Assembly (NCBI GenBank): GCA_023301405.1
Contig: JALZUX010000108.1
Coordinates: 1 to 11,315, forward strand
Reading direction: 5' to 3'
Origin: Granulosicoccaceae bacterium
GTDB taxonomy: Bacteria; Pseudomonadota; Gammaproteobacteria; Granulosicoccales; Granulosicoccaceae
Length of the DNA: 11,315 nucleotides
This document shows positions 1,403 through 11,315 of the stretch, one piece after another (the first letter of the stretch is position 1; each line of letters starts with the position of its first letter). A program made the translations under genes and the position numbers. The notes beneath the pieces are model-generated. The model ran no database searches. It had not been told where the DNA came from and saw only the letters and a list, made by a program, of their open reading frames with translations.

Positions 1403-2107
1403 ATGCGTATTATACAGATTACCGATAGTCATATTTCGATTCACAATCCGCAACGCACTGTTGATCTGGAAAATTGCATTCGAGCCGTAAATGCAGTGAC
1501 GCCGAAGCCGGATCTGGTGGTGCACACTGGTGATATTGCTCATGATGGACTGACTGTTGAGTATGAGACTGCCAAGAGCTTGCTAAGTCAGTTGTCTTCC
1601 CCCTATGTTGTGTTGGCTGGCAATCGCGATAATCGTGAACACCTGATGCAGGTATTTGCGGACTGCATCAATGTGGATTCCGACAGTAAGTTTTTGCAGT
1701 ACGTCGTCGATTCCTATTCAGCTAGGTTGATTGTTATCGATACGGTTGGACAAGCCAGTAAAGGTACGCTGTGCGAGGTGCGCCTGAAACATATTGACGC
1801 CATGCTTGCTGCTGATGCCGAAAAGCCAGTGATCGTCTTTATGCACCACACACCGTTTGAAGCGACAGAGATTCCTGATCCGTTTCAGTTCGAGGATTGG
1901 ACTGACGTAGACAAGCTGCTACAGATATTTAAGAATTATTCTCAAATTCAAGCTGTTTATTGTGGGCATATTCACCGAAACGTTGAGGCAGAAGTGGCGG
2001 GGCTGTCAGTCAGCGCGTTATCGTGCTTGGCCTGTGACTTGCGCAAGGGTGAGTTGAGTAAAGAGGATGCTGAGAGGCCGATGTTTAAGGTAATTGACTT
2101 GCCCTGA
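1403..2107 (+). CDS. CpdA/Icc-like class III phosphodiesterase, metallophosphoesterase fold
   Basis: A soluble 234-residue calcineurin-like phosphoesterase that resembles the CpdA (Icc) group, some of whose members hydrolyse 3',5'-cAMP. The two-metal motifs appear in order: D8-x-H10, G43-D44, G73-N74, H148-H149 before Thr-Pro, and G188-H189-x-H191. These are the expected ligands for a dinuclear Fe/Mn site. The third motif reads Gly-Asn-Arg-Asp (R75), whereas most family members have Gly-Asn-His-Asp/Glu with the His aiding catalysis. The enzyme may therefore act on another phosphodiester, or belong to a known variant branch. GAAGGG about ten bases before the ATG supports the start. No signal peptide is present, so it is cytoplasmic. 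It converges on the second metallophosphoesterase with a 62-bp gap. The gene name is withheld because the substrate is uncertain. Confidence 0.85.
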   Translation: MRIIQITDSHISIHNPQRTVDLENCIRAVNAVTPKPDLVVHTGDIAHDGLTVEYETAKSLLSQLSSPYVVLAGNRDNREHLMQVFADCINVDSDSKFLQYVVDSYSARLIVIDTVGQASKGTLCEVRLKHIDAMLAADAEKPVIVFMHHTPFEATEIPDPFQFEDWTDVDKLLQIFKNYSQIQAVYCGHIHRNVEAEVAGLSVSALSCLACDLRKGELSKEDAERPMFKVIDLP

Positions 2108-2169: not shown

Positions 2170-3183
2170 CTACTCATTGGTGGCGGGTTTCAGATCAATG
2201 ACAGTCATTTCGCAGCGTGTGCCGAACCTGAGTATTGGTCCCCAGGTGCCAGCGCCCGGAGACACATAGAGGTGTTGGTTATCTTTAACAAAGTGACCTA
2301 CCATCTGTGGAAATTGCTTCTTGACCAAGAGGCCAAAAGGCCAGATTTGGCCAGCGTGGGTGTGGCCACAAAGCATTAGGTCAATACCGTTATCGCATGC
2401 GGCTTGCCATCCGTCTGGTTTATGGTAAAGCAGTACGGTAAATTCCTGTGTGTTAACACCTATGTCGGGTAGTACTTTGGCTACTTGCTGAGGTTCGTCG
2501 GCGTCGTCGATACCGATGAGGTTAATTTCTTTATATTTTTCGGTGGTATTGCGTAATACAGTAGTTTTATTATTCTCAATGGCTTTGATCGCCTGATCAA
2601 GATTCACATAGCGTTCGTGGTTGCCAAGGCACATCCATAGCGGGCAATTTGGTGCTGATAACGGAGTAAGGAACTTTTCATTTACAGCGCTTGAGTCGAG
2701 TAAATCCCCGGTAATTAGTATGGCATCCGGCTTATGTGACATGGCCTGGGCGACGCACTTTTGCACGAAGGCGCTACTGCGGCTACCGGCGTGAACATCG
2801 CTAATATGAACAAACCGATAGGATGATTTAATTTTTATACTTTGAATGGTGAGTGATTTATTGTGGATTCTATGAGCAGCAACTATTCCGTAAGCGCAGG
2901 CGATTATCCAAAGTAGTAGAGCAACGAGGCCACTTGTTGGGCCGTCGGTCATTAATCGTAGGGGCGCACAAATAGCTAAAACTGTTATCAGTACCGTAGT
3001 CCAGCCGACCAATTGTAGTGTTGGCCATTTCATGGCCAAGTTTGATGACTGAACTGAGTGCCACATCCATGCAGATAGCGGAATGGCAAATAATGTGCTG
3101 AACAGCAGTGCCATTGATACAGGGGTGTTGGTCAGCCATGCTGTTAATACTGCCAGTGGCATACAGACGATCACCCAAAGCAC
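2170..3183 (-). CDS. YaeI-like membrane-anchored metallophosphoesterase
   Basis: At least 337 residues. The first ~105 are hydrophobic and predict about four membrane helices (roughly 2-18, 22-41, 55-74, 85-103). A calcineurin-like phosphoesterase domain follows, with the complete motif set: D129-x-H131, G159-D160, G187-N188-H189-E190, H254 (YHKPD), and G273-H274-T275-H276 followed by Ala-Gly-Gln. The ending Gly-His-Thr-His-Ala-Gly-Gln is typical of the YaeI / UDP-2,3-diacylglucosamine hydrolase-like membrane phosphoesterases. The reaction is metal-dependent phosphodiester hydrolysis; the substrate is unknown and could be lipid-linked. Coordinates here use a GTG at 3183, which has no ribosome binding site. 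The same frame is open 12 codons further upstream to an ATC at 3219 that sits well spaced behind AAAGGA and gives a far better membrane-protein N-terminus, so the true protein may be 349 residues. Confidence 0.85.
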   Translation of the reverse strand: MLWVIVCMPLAVLTAWLTNTPVSMALLFSTLFAIPLSAWMWHSVQSSNLAMKWPTLQLVGWTTVLITVLAICAPLRLMTDGPTSGLVALLLWIIACAYGIVAAHRIHNKSLTIQSIKIKSSYRFVHISDVHAGSRSSAFVQKCVAQAMSHKPDAILITGDLLDSSAVNEKFLTPLSAPNCPLWMCLGNHERYVNLDQAIKAIENNKTTVLRNTTEKYKEINLIGIDDADEPQQVAKVLPDIGVNTQEFTVLLYHKPDGWQAACDNGIDLMLCGHTHAGQIWPFGLLVKKQFPQMVGHFVKDNQHLYVSPGAGTWGPILRFGTRCEMTVIDLKPATNE

Positions 3184-5941: not shown

Positions 5942-7855
5942 TTAAGCGGTATCTTTAATGATGCCGTGTTCTTTCATAATGTTGATTACTTTTTCAGCGC
6001 ATTGCTCTGCCGACAGTGAGGAGGTATCAACCAATATTTCTGGTGATTCAGGGTGCTCATACGGTGAGTCAATGCCAGTGAAGTTTTTAAGGTCGCCGCT
6101 ACGTGCTTTTTTATACAGACCTTTGGGGTCTCTTTCTTCGGCGATAGCCAGCGGGGTTTCTACATACACTTCAAGAAATTCGCCGTCATCAAGTAAGCCT
6201 CTGGCCATTTGCCGTTCGGCGATAAACGGTGATATGAACGCCGTAAGTACTATAAGTCCGCTGTCTACCATGAGTCGGGCAACTTCACCAATGCGACGTA
6301 TGTTTTCAACGCGGTCTTCATCGGTAAAGCCCAAGTCTTTGTTCAGGCCGTGGCGTACATTGTCACCGTCAAGAAGGTAAGTATGGCGGCCTTGGGCTGC
6401 TAACTTTTTCTCGACAAGGTTGGCAATGGTTGATTTTCCTGATCCTGAAAGACCGGTAAACCACAGTACACACGACTTTTGATCCTTGAGACCAGAGCGA
6501 AGTTGCTTATCTACATCAACCGCTTGCATGTGAATGTTTTGCGAGCGACGCAGGGCAAAGTTTAATGTGCCCGCTGCAACTGTATTGTTTGTCAGTCGAT
6601 CGATAAGAATGAAGCTGCCTGTGGTGTGGTTGTCTTCGTAATTATCAAAAGCGATTTGACGGTCCAGGTTTAAGTTGCAAACCCCGATACTGTTGAGTTC
6701 AAGCTTTTTTGAGGCGGCGTGTTCAAGTGTGTTGACGTTGACCTCGTGTTTGATATCGGTGACGGTAGCTGTCGCGTTGGTTGTGCCGCACTTCAGTGTG
6801 TAGGCGCGGCCGGGTAGCAATGGCTCCTCGTCCATCCACACAATGCTGCTTTCAAATTGATTTGCGGTGCTGGCGGGAGTTTCAGTGGTGGAGATGATGT
6901 CTCCGCGTGAGATATCGATTTGATCTTTGAGGGTGATCGTGACGGCTTGACCTGCAATTGCGGAATCAAGATCACCATCATGGGTAACAATTCGATCTAC
7001 TGTGCTGGTCTTGCCGGATGGTTGTACGCGGATGGCATCACCAGGCTTAACTGTGCCGCTTGCTATGGTGCCAGCAAAGCCACGAAAGTCGAGGTTAGGG
7101 CGGTTAACCCACTGTACAGGAAGTCGGAACGGGGTGTTGACTGCTAAATCCGAGTCTACTTTGACTGTTTCAAGAAAAGACAGCAGGGTTGTACCGTGGT
7201 ACCAGCCCATGTTCTGGCTGGGCTCTATGATATTGTCGCCGCGTAGTGCTGACAGCGGTATAGCCGTGATGTTGTCGAGTTCAAGCTTGTCTGATAATTC
7301 AGAAAAATCATCGACAATTTTATTAAATGAGGCTTCATCGTAATTGATGAGATCCATCTTATTAATTGCGAGAACAATATTTTTTATGCCGACTAATGAA
7401 GCCAGGTAGGCGTGTCTTCTGGTTTGTGTGAGAATGCCTTGGCGAGCATCAACAAGTAACAAGGCCACATCGGCAGTAGATGCGCCAGTGATCATGTTGC
7501 GGGTGTATTGTTCATGACCCGGGGTGTCTGCAACAATGAATTTTCGCTTGTCTGTATTGAAGTAACGATATGCGACATCAATAGTAATGCCTTGCTCGCG
7601 TTCGGCGGCTAGACCGTCTACCAATAGTGCGAAATCAAGGTCATTTCCCTGGGTGCCATGTTTTTTTGAATCGGCCTTTATCGATTCAAGTTGATCTTCG
7701 TGCAGGGTCTTTGATTCAAAAAGTAGCCTGCCAATGAGTGTGCTTTTGCCATCATCAACGCTACCGCAAGTGATAAAGCGCAGCATGCCCTTGTTTTCGT
7801 GTAGATTAAGGTATTGTTGGATGTCTGTTTTGAGTATATTGTTTGCGACGGCCAT
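5942..7855 (-). CDS. cysNC: Bifunctional sulfate adenylyltransferase subunit 1 / adenylylsulfate kinase
   Basis: A 637-residue fusion for sulfate activation. The N-terminal CysN part is an EF-Tu-like GTPase with P-loop GSVDDGKST at 31-39, then DTPGHEQYT, the Asn-Lys-Met-Asp base-recognition motif, and beta-barrel domains to about residue 440. It drives APS formation with CysD by GTP hydrolysis. The C-terminal CysC part (about 455-637) is APS kinase: second P-loop GLSGSGKST at 468-476, [21 protein letters not shown], and [11 protein letters not shown]. It phosphorylates APS to PAPS. Length and order match intact bifunctional CysNC proteins, and no motif is missing. Its ATG shares one base with the stop of cysD (TAATG), and AGGAGG stands ten bases before it, so the two are translationally coupled. 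Confidence 0.96.
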
Positions 7856-8757
7856 TAGAAGTAGCCCTCCTGTTTTTTCTTTTCCATTGAGGCGGCGCTG
7901 TCATGATCAATCATGCGGCCTTGTCGTTCAGAGGTTTTTGCCAGTAGCATTTCCTGAATGATGTCTGGCAGGGTGGTGGCATTTGATTCAACAGCACCGG
8001 TCAGCGGGTAGCAGCCAAGCGTTCTGAAGCGAACGTTTTTTATCATCGGTACTTCACCGGTGTTCATTGGCATGCGATCGTCGTCAACCATAATCATGCT
8101 TCCGTCACGCATCACTACAGGGCGTTGTGCTGCATAGTACAAAGGCACTATTGGAATGCCTTCCTTGTGTATGTATTGCCAGACATCAAGTTCTGTCCAG
8201 TTCGAGATGGGAAATACGCGAATGGATTCGCCCTTCATTTTTTTAGTGTTATAAAGGTTCCATAGTTCTGGTCTTTGGTTTTTCGGGTCCCAGCGATGTT
8301 GTTCTGTGCGAAAAGAAAAAATGCGTTCTTTTGCGCGTGATTGTTCTTCGTCTCTTCGTGCGCCGCCAAATGCTGCGTCAAAGCCGTATTTATCTAGTGC
8401 TTGTCGCAGTCCTTGTGTCTTCATGATGTCGGTATGAAGTGAAGATCCGTGGGTGAACGGGTTCACTCCTTTTTCAAGGCCTTCTGGATTAGTGTGCGTG
8501 ATTAACTCGAGCTTCAGGTCTCTGACCATTTTGTCGCGGAACTCGTACATGGCTTGGAACTTCCAGCCGGTATCAACATGAAGTAAGGCAAATGGTAGCT
8601 TCGCAGGATAAAAAGCTTTCATGGCTAGGTGCAGCATAACAGCGCTGTCTTTGCCGATTGAGTACAGCATCACGGGTTTGTCTGAGTTGGCGACAACCTC
8701 GCGCATGATGTGAATGCTTTCGGCTTCCAGGCGCTGAAGGTGTGTTAACGACGACAT
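7855..8757 (-). CDS. cysD: Sulfate adenylyltransferase subunit 2, internal start within a longer frame
   Basis: From the ATG at 8757 the frame encodes 300 residues, which matches ordinary CysD (about 300). CysD is the catalytic subunit of ATP sulfurylase and pairs with CysN to make APS from sulfate and ATP. The opening residues, Leu-Thr-His-Leu-x-x-Leu-Glu-Ala-Glu-Ser-Ile-His-Ile, are the normal CysD N-terminus. The PP-loop [11 protein letters not shown], then [25 protein letters not shown] with [14 protein letters not shown], and the C-terminal Gln-Glu-Gly-Tyr-Phe are all present. AAGGA ends 11 bases before the ATG, a long but usable spacing. The oddity is that the same frame continues upstream with no stop for 296 codons, so this CysD may be made alone, as the C-terminal half of a fusion, or both. 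Confidence 0.93.
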
Positions 8758-9645
8758 GGTTGGAGTTTTCCTTTTCGTATCCGTTGGATGGCGATTGGTT
8801 AAAGTGTTGTATATCGAATTAATTTCGGGGTCGGTAGGGTTATCTGATTGCTGTGGTTGGCTATCGGTAGCCCTGATTGCCGGGTGTGCAAAAACCTTTA
8901 TGGTATTGTTAGTACTGAGCCATTGCTGCACGTCAGCATTTGCACTGATGTCTATTCCGTGCAAAATTACGCATAAGCTACCGTCAGCGTGTGTTGATAG
9001 CCGTTGCAGAAAGTTGATCAAATGTTCGGCCAGACTGTTTTGGCTTTGATTTAACAGCCAGAAGTATTGGCCTCGTGTGCTGTGTGCATACAGCAAAGAC
9101 GTTTGTTTATTGTTTGAATCTACCAGCTTGTGGCCTACCCAGAAAATAGTACTGTCTGACTTGCGTGTCTCGCGGACGATGTTTTTATAGGTTGTGTTCA
9201 GCCAGTCTGTTTGTTGGCCTGAGTCTTTGCAGGCGGTGTGGAGATTTTCAGCGCCTAGGCCCCATTGCACCACATACTTGCCCAATGATCGTGCGCTTAT
9301 TGCGGTCTGGTGATTCTGCCTGCAGTGCTCTTCCAGAAGTTTCAGGGTCCATGGCAATCCATTGGCTGGTCCATCGTGGGCGGGGTGTTGCTGTGCGGCT
9401 GATTTAAGTGAGGTCAGCACGTCATCAGGCAGGGCTTGTTGTTTGCCCTTGCTTCTGCCTCTGGGGCTTACGTCCACTGCTGGCCAACCGCCTTGTAAAA
9501 AGAGTTTATGAGCAGCGATGATTGTTGGCGCTGAGAGCTCCACAATTTTCTCGATATCGGCAATCTTTTGACCCTGTAGCCGTAACTTTACGGAGAGGCG
9601 TCTTCGCTCGTTTAATATGTCTTGGTTGTTGGGTGGCTTATCCAT
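7855..9645 (-). CDS. Transposase-like DNA-binding domain fused in frame to CysD
   Basis: The complete frame from the ATG at 9645 encodes 596 residues. Residues 1-296 resemble an IS630-type transposase. A first helix-turn-helix spans about 12-52 (rich in Arg, ending in Gly-Gly-Trp), then a Pro-Arg-Gly-Arg-x-x-Gly linker at 61-67, a second helical DNA-binding segment about 75-130 (IS630-like W-T-L-K-L-L, S-x-x-S-L-G-K-Y, W-G-L), and an RNase H-like region about 148-255. The acidic residues expected in that region are not seen. The segment IFWVGHKL (167-174) stands where Asp-Glu is usual, and ILHGID (227-232) where Asp-Gly or Asp-Asn is usual. The Pro-x-Leu-Asn-Pro-x-Glu motif is absent. Residues 260-296 form a polar linker, then CysD begins at 297. 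An earlier TTG at 9675 would almost coincide with the predicted transcript start, so ATG is preferred. The transposase origin is inferred by motif comparison only. Confidence 0.72.
7866..7871 (-). promoter_or_regulatory. Strong ribosome binding site of cysNC inside the end of cysD
   Basis: AGGAGG on the minus strand lies ten bases before the cysNC ATG at 7855 and within the last codons of cysD. With the TAATG overlap this indicates coupled translation, which keeps the two subunits in balance. Confidence 0.75.
8769..8773 (-). promoter_or_regulatory. Internal ribosome binding site of cysD
   Basis: AAGGA on the minus strand, within GAAAAGGAAAAC, stands 11 bases before the cysD ATG at 8757. Because it lies in the codons for Lys-Arg-Lys of the linker, its presence suggests that cysD is, or recently was, translated from its own start even though the upstream frame runs through it. 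Confidence 0.5.
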
Positions 9646-9684
9646 TGGGTTTCTAGCGGTCAATACATTAAACAATTGAAGTAT

Positions 9685-9712
9685 TTTATACGAATTAAAT
9701 ATTTAATTGCAA
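9685..9712 (-). promoter_or_regulatory. Predicted sigma-70 promoter of the sulfate operon
   Basis: On the minus strand TTGCAA (9712-9707) and TATAAA (9690-9685) are separated by 16 bases. The predicted transcript start near 9678 leaves about 33 bases before the ATG at 9645. The hexamers match the consensus at 4 and 5 of 6 positions. The spacer is almost entirely a palindrome, listed separately. No CysB site can be recognised with confidence. Confidence 0.55.
9693..9708. repeat. Perfect 16-bp palindrome in the promoter spacer, candidate operator
   Basis: AATTAAATATTTAATT is its own reverse complement over all 16 bases. It lies between the predicted -35 and -10 elements of the sulfate operon and overlaps the last two bases of the -35. 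A dimeric repressor bound here would block RNA polymerase. The helix-turn-helix region encoded at the start of this operon is an obvious candidate binder, but AT-rich palindromes also arise by chance. Confidence 0.5.
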
Positions 9713-10029
9713 GATGTATGCGTAGTGTTATGTAAATACCTCACAAATACCAAGCCAATGAGTTTTCTAGCGCCCGAAACGCTCGCGAAGGCGTATGGGG
9801 TCGGGCTCAGTGGGTTTCCGGAGCGGGCAGGAATCAGCAGCCACGTGCGTTGCTGAGGGTGGAAGGTGCTCCAAATATATTCAGAGGCAAATCAGTCCGG
9901 CGATAGGGTAGAATGTGGCAGTCTCTAGTTTTGGAGGTGGGGTTGTGAAAATGCTATCTGGCTTTGCACAGGTAAAAATTGGCAGTTTTTCGGCCTGATT
10001 GTTGGCCAATGTGGTTAACGAGGAACAAT
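9713..10029. other. Intergenic region between divergent operon and repeat protein
   Basis: About 320 bases without a clear full-size gene. A G+C-rich stretch at about 9770-9870 contains an inverted repeat TCAGCA (9834-9839) / TGCTGA (9851-9856) around CACGTG (9842-9847). TAGAAT at 9909-9914 could be a -10 for the plus-strand gene, but no good -35 is seen. An inverted repeat ATTGGC (9978-9983) / GCCAAT (10005-10010) precedes the repeat-protein start. A short leader frame is listed separately. Confidence 0.45.
9945..9998 (+). CDS. Possible 17-residue leader peptide
   Basis: GGAGG at 9933-9937 is spaced 7 bases from a GTG at 9945 that opens a 17-codon frame ending in TGA at 9996-9998, 31 bases before the repeat-protein ATG. 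This ribosome binding site is good in strength and spacing. The peptide has no run of a single amino acid that would suggest classical attenuation. It could be a translated leader that affects the downstream gene, or chance. Confidence 0.25.
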   Translation: MKMLSGFAQVKIGSFSA

Positions 10030-11315
10030 ATGGTTAAAATTTTCTGGAAGGCCCTTGGGGTACTTCTGCTTGTTGCGTCGGGTGCCGGGACGGTTGTCTA
10101 CGGTGAGCAATTGCCTGCATCTGAGCCCGATTTTGACGGTGATGGTTTGTCTGACCTCCAGGAGTTGGTTTACGGCACTCTAGTAGACGATCCGGATTCA
10201 GATTCCGACGGCATCGCAGATGGTGATGAGGTCAATGAGCATAATACTGACCCTCTGGATGCAGACACTGATGGCGATGGATTAAGCGATACCAAAGAAA
10301 TCTTCGATATTGGCACAAACCCACTGCTCGCCGATACTGATGGTGATGGCTTAGATGACGGTCATGAGGTGGAGCAACGCGGCACCAATCCTCTTGCGAA
10401 TGATACTGACGGCAACGGCATTTCTGATTCAGATGAATCTGCTCCATTAATCGCCATTGATTCAGACGGCGATGGCATTAACGATTCCACTGAAGTGCAA
10501 ATCGGTACAGACCCTTTTAACCCTGATACAGACAGTGATGGCGCGACTGACCGGCAGGAGCTCGGAGTCGGTGGTAATCCGGTTAATCCGGATACTGACG
10601 GTGACGGTATTTTTGACGGTGCGGAAATAGTCTCTGTGGGAGGGGTTCAGATCACAGATACCGATGGCGATGGCCTGGGTAATGCGGTAGATCTGGATAG
10701 CGATCACGATGGTTTACCAGACAGTACAGAGGGCTTTCTTGATTCTGATAATGATGGGCTGGCAGATGCTTTTGATCTGGACAGCGACAACGATGGCATT
10801 CCGGACATCGTAGAGGCTGGTGTGCAGGTAGCTGAAGAAGACGGCCGTATCGATAACGCAGTCGACAATAACAATGATGGCCTGGCTGATGTTCTGAGCA
10901 ACAGGCCACTGGTGAATAATGATTCTGATGGAGATGGCGTTGCCAATGCCATTGATCTTGATTCAGATAATGATGGCATATCAGATCTAGTCGAGTCTGG
11001 TGGTGTCGATGCTGACAGCGATGGTCGTATCGACAACCTGATTGATGCCAATGGTGATGGGATGGCGGATCAGGCAGAGGGTAACGTGGACGTTGACACT
11101 GACGCAGACGGGCAGGCAGATAGGCTGGACCTTGATTCAGACAACGATGGCGTCGCCGATCTTCTTGAGGGTGGCAATTCAGACGTCGACGGTGACCGAC
11201 GCGTAGATAACTTTGTAGATGCAAATTCGGATGGGTTTGATGATGCACTGGCATCGTCTTCTCCGGCGTTGTCTGATGGCGACAATGATGGAACTGCTGA
11301 TGTCATAGATGCTGA
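10030..11315 (+). CDS. Secreted calcium-repeat protein (thrombospondin type 3-like), 3' end outside window
   Basis: An open frame from ATG 10030 to the window edge, at least 428 residues and without a stop. AGGA ends five bases before the ATG. Residues 1-25 are a signal peptide (Lys residues, a Leu/Val core, cleavage likely after Val-Tyr-Gly), so the protein is exported. Residues 34 to about 215 contain D-x-D-G-D-G-x-x-D units spaced about 23-26 residues apart with Gly-Thr-Asn-Pro or Gly-Thr-Asp-Pro between them, as in thrombospondin type 3-like calcium repeats. From about 220 the pattern changes to longer ~60-residue units centred on DLDSDNDG. Such proteins are often long surface or secreted adhesins stiffened by calcium, but no adhesion or anchor domain is visible because the C-terminus is missing. 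Divergent from the sulfate operon. Function inferred only from composition. Confidence 0.85.
   Translation, partial: MVKIFWKALGVLLLVASGAGTVVYGEQLPASEPDFDGDGLSDLQELVYGTLVDDPDSDSDGIADGDEVNEHNTDPLDADTDGDGLSDTKEIFDIGTNPLLADTDGDGLDDGHEVEQRGTNPLANDTDGNGISDSDESAPLIAIDSDGDGINDSTEVQIGTDPFNPDTDSDGATDRQELGVGGNPVNPDTDGDGIFDGAEIVSVGGVQITDTDGDGLGNAVDLDSDHDGLPDSTEGFLDSDNDGLADAFDLDSDNDGIPDIVEAGVQVAEEDGRIDNAVDNNNDGLADVLSNRPLVNNDSDGDGVANAIDLDSDNDGISDLVESGGVDADSDGRIDNLIDANGDGMADQAEGNVDVDTDADGQADRLDLDSDNDGVADLLEGGNSDVDGDRRVDNFVDANSDGFDDALASSSPALSDGDNDGTADVIDA
10774..11307 (+). repeat. ~180-bp in-frame tandem repeats in the calcium-repeat protein
   Basis: The Asp-Leu-Asp-Ser-Asp motif starts at residues 249, 309 and 367, and an Asp-Ala-Asp continuation at 427, giving units of 180, 174 and 180 bp (10774-10953, 10954-11127, 11128-11307). 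Each unit holds four to five calcium-loop-like elements in fixed order: DLDSDNDG-x-x-D, Glu-x-Gly, D-x-D-G-R-x-D-N, D-x-N-x-D-G and a closing D-x-D-G-x-A. A shorter 28-residue partial unit precedes them at residue 221. The array probably continues beyond the window. Confidence 0.8.

Follow-up and report, generated by a model that had tools for sequence, protein, structure and literature searches.

In this work, we have used comparative sequence analysis and structure prediction to study a gene in a stretch of 11,315 nucleotides from a Granulosicoccaceae bacterium (contig JALZUX010000108.1 of assembly GCA_023301405.1), which we call the window throughout. The gene lies on the reverse strand at 7855..9645 (ATG at 9643-9645, stop at 7855-7857) and codes for a protein of 596 amino acids in which an N-terminal module derived from an IS630-type transposase is joined in one frame to CysD, the small subunit of ATP sulfurylase. 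We consider it reasonably probable that a domesticated transposase has here made CysD an autoregulator of its own operon, the DNA binding of the module being predicted from sequence comparison. A fuller version, which we put forward tentatively, is that the module would sense the state of its partner, the sulfate-activating enzyme, and control that enzyme's operon through a dedicated, rare operator, and that it was kept across Beta- and Gammaproteobacteria, in places reduced to the first helix-turn-helix (HTH) and once released as a separate gene.

The fused gene and its transposase-derived module

As an earlier note on this DNA had stated, the cysD frame stays open for 296 extra codons upstream (8758-9645), a run whose chance is about 1e-6 at the base composition found there (GC content 0.49). 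In the same region the other two frames of the strand hold 16 and 15 stops, and the three opposite frames 11, 18 and 5. The program-made open reading frame (ORF) of 606 amino acids opens at TTG 9675; we take the ATG at 9645 as the better start because this TTG sits within the promoter motif described below. Residues 313-606 of the 606-residue frame match the CysD family TIGR02039 with 512.1 bits, above the cut-off of 396.6, and the CysD part (300 residues, 7855..8757, reverse strand) has the PP-loop SIGKDS and invariant columns. A cysN-cysC fusion follows on the same strand (5942..7855), and since its start codon overlaps the stop of the fused cysD, both genes probably belong to the same operon.

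The structural model of the module has a mean predicted local distance difference test (pLDDT) score of 91.2 and shows two HTH units followed by the strand-helix order of RNase H, which is the arrangement that the note had recognised from the sequence. In the model of the full-length protein (mean pLDDT 73) the module is preserved and residues 258-298 are disordered (pLDDT <50). The first HTH (residues 7-57; 9475..9627, reverse strand like all parts of the gene), with predicted helices at 7-23, 28-35, 39-52 and 54-57 and with invariant columns, is the best conserved stretch of the extension. It is followed by the segment PRGRSKGK (residues 61-68; 9442..9465), presumably AT-hook-like or GRPR-like, in which P61, G63 and R64 are invariant in an alignment of 19 sequences, and G63 and R64 also in 27. 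Then come the second helical (HTH) subdomain (residues 74-142; 9220..9426; helices 74-84, 101-112, 118-127 and 135-142) and the RNase H-like domain (residues 146-258; 8872..9210; strand order E-E-E-H-E-H-E), seen in the model and in the structure matches and compared at its catalytic positions with an intact IS630 relative, L098. A linker predicted to be disordered (residues 259-296; 8758..8871), also distinguished by its substitution rates, leads to CysD.

To which family does the module belong? The extension matches the NCBIfam IS630 model NF033545 with an E value of 1.5e-11 and 44.3 bits, which does not reach the curated cut-off of 100, and every Pfam match of the extension is likewise below its cut-off. 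Among 27 members, HTH_29 is matched in all 27 (E <=0.01) and DDE_3 in 4. Structure searches with Foldseek and VIA-align returned Pax paired domains, retroviral integrase cores, TnsB and Metnase. Their scores are moderate and would not settle the matter by themselves; the match to the Pax-6 paired domain, also of moderate Z score, covers model residues 2-179. Taken together, the structure matches, the IS630 profile match and the HTH families make the predicted IS630-type assignment firm. Sigma-54 structures gave a weak profile match (E 0.0077), which we read as a generic resemblance between HTH units.

The catalytic site has been lost. The triplets VGH and HGI, where the note had expected acidic residues, align with WGDE and LDNL of L098, and the NPEE segment of L098, which carries the terminal Glu, has no counterpart in the window protein; the RNase H-like fold ends ahead of the helix with the third catalytic acid, and an NPxE-like segment before CysD was found in 0 of 43 frames. 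In 48 aligned fused or split modules the first catalytic Asp is kept in three (L019, L078 and L082) and the second in one (L078), with Glu in its place in L018 and L079; L073, which lies outside this alignment, keeps both. In the column of the third acid there are five Glu among the 48, which stand in the linker without NPxE context and were not counted as catalytic. All five IS630 transposases in the comparison have the three catalytic acids. A DDE/DDD triad was looked for and is absent, and the fused protein, a CysD by its family match, is therefore not a functional IS630 transposase. The word "decayed", used in the note, therefore suits the catalytic site; it does not suit the gene as a whole, which is domesticated. 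The module is present as a single copy in the window's own genome.

Conservation, selection and origin of the fusion

Relatives were counted from genome surveys. When the extension was searched for in 57 genomes, the window's own included, 32 gave a match, and in 29 of the 30 loci obtained a single open frame spans module and CysD (in L004 CysD is cut by the contig end); in the remaining locus, L030, the module frame runs to the contig end. In a survey of the same 57 genomes for CysD itself, 29 Granulosicoccaceae had a match above the cut-off and one more (G008) was cut by the contig end, and CysD was fused in 30/30; two further Granulosicoccaceae had weak CysD matches only, far under the cut-off. 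A scan of named genomes returned 33 loci, partly the same genes, with the best match of the module (58% identity) in an uncultured Granulosicoccaceae bacterium. The fusion is seen in 32 of them (in L063 and L090 CysD is cut by the contig end), and in L073 the contig ends before CysD. Twelve of the 33 are labelled outside Granulosicoccaceae, namely Achromobacter (2), Ramlibacter (2), Advenella, Pusillimonas, Azohydromonas, Sterolibacterium, Burkholderiales, two Betaproteobacteria and one Proteobacteria bacterium; eleven are fused and the twelfth is cut by the contig end. In eight of these genomes CysD was searched for, and a fused CysD was found in 8/8, with a second CysD match in five, above the cut-off in three. 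A locus labelled Chromatiales (L066) has a frame of the same length as that of the family member G003.

Of 369 genomes drawn evenly from the class, 37 matched the module profile, many with transposase-sized frames. Among the loci examined from this draw, the fusion is present in G192, G395 and G016 and a separate module gene in G397, and L098 (genome G056) is the intact transposase, with a frame of 355 amino acids. In the family of G397, 9/61 genomes match the module, and in six of the nine a separate module frame of 257-285 amino acids immediately precedes cysD, which is itself followed by a cysN-type frame; a pattern search of the three remaining loci found neither cysD nor such a module. 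In the genus of one Achromobacter 2/6 genomes match, both of them the fused ones already known. A reduced form occurs in G029 (L029) and G016 (L107), where the second HTH and the RNase H-like domain are gone and only the first HTH and a PRGRP segment remain joined to CysD. Because L029 and L107 are sisters in the CysD tree (100/99), this reduction was probably one event, and these forms point to the first HTH with its basic segment as the part that matters most.

On plasmids, at least 34 records match the module; among 20 listed, 12 are annotated as IS630 transposase, one as an HTH-domain protein and seven carry no annotation. The best plasmid matches listed by tblastn cover 92-93% of the module at 25-28% identity, and 0/366 plasmid records cover 80% of a fused Achromobacter protein.

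Sulfate-activation genes stand near the fusion in other lineages too. A CysN-type frame stands beside cysD in the six separate-gene loci and, by Pfam, in L087 and L082; context names come from Pfam for ten proteins of L087, L082 and L078, and were otherwise given by eye. At the two Achromobacter, the Advenella and the Pusillimonas loci a gene of inositol-phosphatase type (probably cysQ) points away from the fused gene, which is followed by cysNC, and polysaccharide genes lie in the surroundings. In the Sterolibacterium locus (L078, 5947-12706) the fused CysD and CysNC are accompanied by cysC, an ATP sulfurylase of a second type and, by eye, a permease-like gene. To judge from these neighbours, the operon may in these lineages feed 3'-phosphoadenosine 5'-phosphosulfate (PAPS) to sulfation.

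Both halves of the protein are under purifying selection. Ratios of non-synonymous to synonymous substitution (dN/dS) were computed by the NG86 method for nine species pairs, several of which have saturated synonymous sites, so that only the ranking is trusted. Where dS was computable, CysD is lowest (0.01-0.04), followed by the first 62 residues of the module core (0.05-0.09 in six of nine pairs, the other three being saturated) and the rest of the module (0.10-0.20); the linker gave 0.18-0.91 in eight of nine pairs.

In the module tree, which includes five transposases and leaves out L073, L029, L030 and L107, the sampled IS630 transposases form a long separate branch (support 100/100). The fused protein closest to them is L078, with weak support (94/70). 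The split module genes nest among the fused ones, several deep forks being weak, which suggests that the separate gene arose by fission of a fused one.

These data bear on whether the window holds an active or recently active IS630 element, inserted in frame by chance. The family-level similarity of the module to IS630 transposases is what such an insertion would give, but the module is single-copy in its genome, the third catalytic segment is missing in 43/43 frames and the Asp residues in most, the fusion is conserved at one place across families, and the sampled transposases stand on their own branch; we give this explanation almost no weight. On the grounds of conservation, selection and phylogeny we reject a recent insertion, as we do a chance open frame or an assembly artefact. 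The suggestion of the note that the frame has been retained for a function is supported by the fusion across families, the selection on both halves, the two pared-down forms and the six genomes with adjacent genes.

Candidate operators and the proposed autoregulation

A conserved motif is found at the gene's own promoter in most module-bearing lineages. It is AT-rich, about TTAAATGTTTAA. Motif discovery, with equal effort for real and shuffled sets, gave a log-likelihood ratio of 140.0 for 28 Granulosicoccaceae upstream regions against 45.6 +/- 3.0 for shuffled ones (maximum 49.6 of 12), and of 47.8 for 11 upstream regions of other lineages against 32.6 +/- 2.5 (maximum 37.3). A first run, in which real sets had more restarts than shuffles, 10 other upstreams were used and the anchor pattern missed L026, L074, L091, L128 and L130, gave the consensus TTAAATaTTTAA in Granulosicoccaceae and TAATGTTTAAAT in the others. 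In the window the upstream region reads TTGCAATTAAATATTTAAT, with a second copy, AATTGTTTAAT, 27 bases downstream, a layout common to close relatives. The first site is a perfect palindrome, ATTAAATATTTAAT (9694..9707), supported by the upstream comparison and by motif discovery, and is the sole exact copy in the 4.03 Mb genome; the second (9667..9677, reverse strand), seen in the upstream comparison, lies near the start codon. We regard both as candidate operators.

The motif follows the module in most lineages. A matrix trained on Granulosicoccaceae only reaches at least 6 bits in 10/11 upstreams of other lineages and in 0/181 upstreams of other ORFs from the same loci. These control ORFs were mechanical ones, and the test was therefore repeated on intergenic stretches, with 10/11 against 1/28 at 6 bits and 8/11 against 0/28 at 10 bits. 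In the reverse test, a matrix from the other lineages applied to 17 Granulosicoccaceae loci gave 17/17 against 5/59 at 6 bits and 13/17 against 0/59 at 10 bits. The controls were richer in GC than the targets (0.56 against 0.45 and 0.51 against 0.39); with GC-matched controls, eight per test, the p values were 0.003 and 4e-5. For 8 of the 11 other upstreams, shuffles of their own sequence reach the motif score in <=7/500, and the upstreams of four unfused cysD genes score at most 3.0 bits. The reduced L029 keeps a site of 14.8 bits and L107, the other such gene, one of 7.3, both being in the training set. The motif tests were run without L026 and L091, with L013 and L014 too short and L074, L128 and L130 entering the cross-lineage scan; the intergenic and reverse tests also went without L063, L071, L080 and L088, and L073 was included in the motif tests, its CysD lying past the contig end.

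Because distant lineages share both the module and the promoter motif, the best-supported role is the one that the note had offered as an example, a DNA-binding regulator joined to CysD, although it is deduced from sequence and some lineages are without the motif. We propose that an IS630/Tc1-type transposase, or its part up to the last RNase H strand, was captured before cysD, probably once, and that, having lost its catalytic residues, it was retained as a module that binds DNA sequence-specifically. In the promoter of their own operon, the double HTH and the PRGR(P/S) segment would recognise one or two palindromic, AT-rich sites (about ATTAAATGTTTAAT), the RNase H-like part probably serving for dimerisation or spacing. 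CysD would remain an active ATP-sulfurylase subunit, and the fused protein would most likely repress or tune its operon, the fused cysD and then cysNC. As in other enzyme-repressors, the occupancy of the sites could depend on the amount of CysD that is free of CysN, or on the ligands of CysD. The single capture, the binding of the motif, the activity of CysD, the sign of the regulation and its coupling to the state of the enzyme are thus proposed steps of the model.

Several observations weigh against this proposal. The motif is AT-rich and located in promoters, and intergenic controls reach 6 bits too, in the 1/28 and 5/59 given above; the GC-matched controls are few, and one beta control among them scores at least 8 bits. 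Own-sequence shuffles equal or exceed the real site in 46/500 for L082, 35/500 for L085 and 435/500 for L078, which makes these sites not significant. Scored with the Granulosicoccaceae-trained matrix, L078, L100 and L101 lack the motif, and the separate-gene family shows at best a weak one. The window's own genome has one exact copy of the palindrome and one more with a single mismatch, and a reversed control pattern equals it in near matches (two per strand), so that rarity alone does not mark it as functional. In the CysD tree, four unfused CysD stand among fused and split ones (83/90), which speaks against a single capture or does not resolve it.

The weak or missing motif in those lineages would fit a different use of the module, in which it binds DNA to anchor the sulfate-activating complex to the nucleoid or has some other enzyme-related role, the motif belonging to a separate regulator; purifying selection, too, tells of a function of unspecified kind. 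We hold this to be improbable, as the motif goes with the module at this gene's promoter in distant lineages and rarely occurs at neighbouring genes, the unfused cysD genes score low, and L029, whose module is cut down to the first HTH and PRGRP, has kept its 14.8-bit site, though L107 has one of 7.3 bits.

A dual-product gene, which can be combined with autoregulation, appears possible to us, if rather unlikely: the long fusion would be a minor regulatory form, and a short CysD from an internal start would do the metabolic work. In the window a possible internal start (ATG at 8755..8757, reverse strand) is preceded by AAAAGGAA, a fair ribosome site with a predicted pairing to the 16S tail of -5.6 kcal/mol. 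In this analysis, from which L080 dropped out, an ATG lies at most three codons before the CysD core in 11/43 genes, at exactly four codons in seven more, the window included, and within 45 codons in 36/43, a count that also weighs against our main proposal. The predicted pairing is somewhat better than that of in-frame ATGs inside CysD, with p 0.014 for the 11 genes and p 0.022 for the other 25; in these the best ATG out of several was used, a choice that favours an internal start. The split gene of the six genomes would also be easily reached from such a state. Against it, these ribosome-site statistics are weak, and seven genes (L024, L029, L078, L089, L100, L101 and L107) have no ATG within the 45 codons; six of the seven have a GTG or TTG within 12 codons.

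The CysD of the window having its own ATG, one could also imagine that the upstream frame is a silent or neutral leader, open by chance or through an assembly error, and that CysD is made alone. The low chance of such a frame, the lack of any in-frame stop in 29 homologous loci, the selection at the protein level and the seven ATG-less genes leave this idea hardly any probability.

Two further ideas were set aside. A wide regulon left no sign in scans of the window's own genome, where the extended palindrome recurs at no fewer than three mismatches (two sites; control one), and of two Achromobacter genomes, in each of which the Achromobacter form of the motif occurs once at up to two mismatches (control none); more degenerate sites would escape such scans. 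That the operator is a relic of transposon ends gained little from the intact IS630 gene of L098, around which the inverted repeats amounted to two overlapping pairs of 12-mers, with one mismatch.

Upstream of the separate module gene (L126-L130 and L099) there is another, strongly conserved block, about TTGTGGGA.TTTACG..GCCTTTTATGATG, with a conserved spacer and, by eye, like a sigma-70 promoter. It may be the operator of the split form.

Neighbouring features, related systems and significance

Next to the first candidate operator, at 9707..9721 (reverse strand), the window has a promoter-like block, GCATACATCTTGCAA, which follows the pattern GCAY-N5-WTGY and which may be read either as a sigma-54-like -24/-12 element or as a sigma-70 -35 element. 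The pattern is found in 18/28 Granulosicoccaceae upstreams (in L012 at another place than in its relatives) and in 0/17 of other lineages; by chance, mononucleotide shuffles gave a mean of 0.36 and a maximum of 3 in 300 sets. The DNA-binding domain of sigma-54 was found in 33/36 genomes of the family; this domain and the activator-interacting domain were not found in the window's own genome, which is 86% complete.

Elsewhere in the window, an open-ended gene of DxDxDG repeats (9979-11313, forward strand), by eye thrombospondin type-3-like and calcium-binding-like, is divergent from the fused cysD, and a protein with a similar start occupies the same place in L061 (4383-5777). Two adjoining ORFs at 1403-2107 (forward) and 2170-3183 (reverse) are, by eye, metallophosphoesterase-like.

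The protein shares with IS630/Tc1-mariner transposases, such as L098 or IS1471 on plasmids, the paired-like double HTH, the RNase H-like fold and a segment that we take to be GRPR-like. Unlike them, its module is without the DDE triad, ends before the NPxE helix, is single-copy in its own genome and is fixed before cysD. As a CysD it is full-length (300 residues), has the PP-loop and stands beside cysNC; it differs from the ordinary enzyme in some 296 extra N-terminal residues of transposase origin. PutA, NadR and BirA are enzymes that double as DNA-binding regulators of their own pathway, and the fused CysD resembles them in that a metabolic enzyme carries, by prediction, a DNA-binding-type domain and that its own promoter has a candidate site, although here the DNA-binding part comes from a transposase. 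Domesticated transposases are well known as regulators in eukaryotes. In primates, SETMAR (Metnase) is a histone methyltransferase fused to a mariner transposase, so that there also a host enzyme is joined to a Tc1/mariner-type part; in contrast to the fused CysD, SETMAR is eukaryotic, has the transposase at the C-terminal side and is another enzyme with another role.

The earlier note knew of no described fusion of a transposase to CysD, and we found none in the openly accessible part of the literature. Domesticated transposases and enzyme-repressors are known kinds, and, as far as that part goes, their combination on a core sulfur enzyme is new. Annotation may label such proteins plainly as CysD, hiding the extension. 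If our proposal is true, these bacteria would offer a clear case of a mobile element turned enzyme-regulator on a core metabolic enzyme, and the module would give direct control of sulfate activation and hence of the supply of PAPS.

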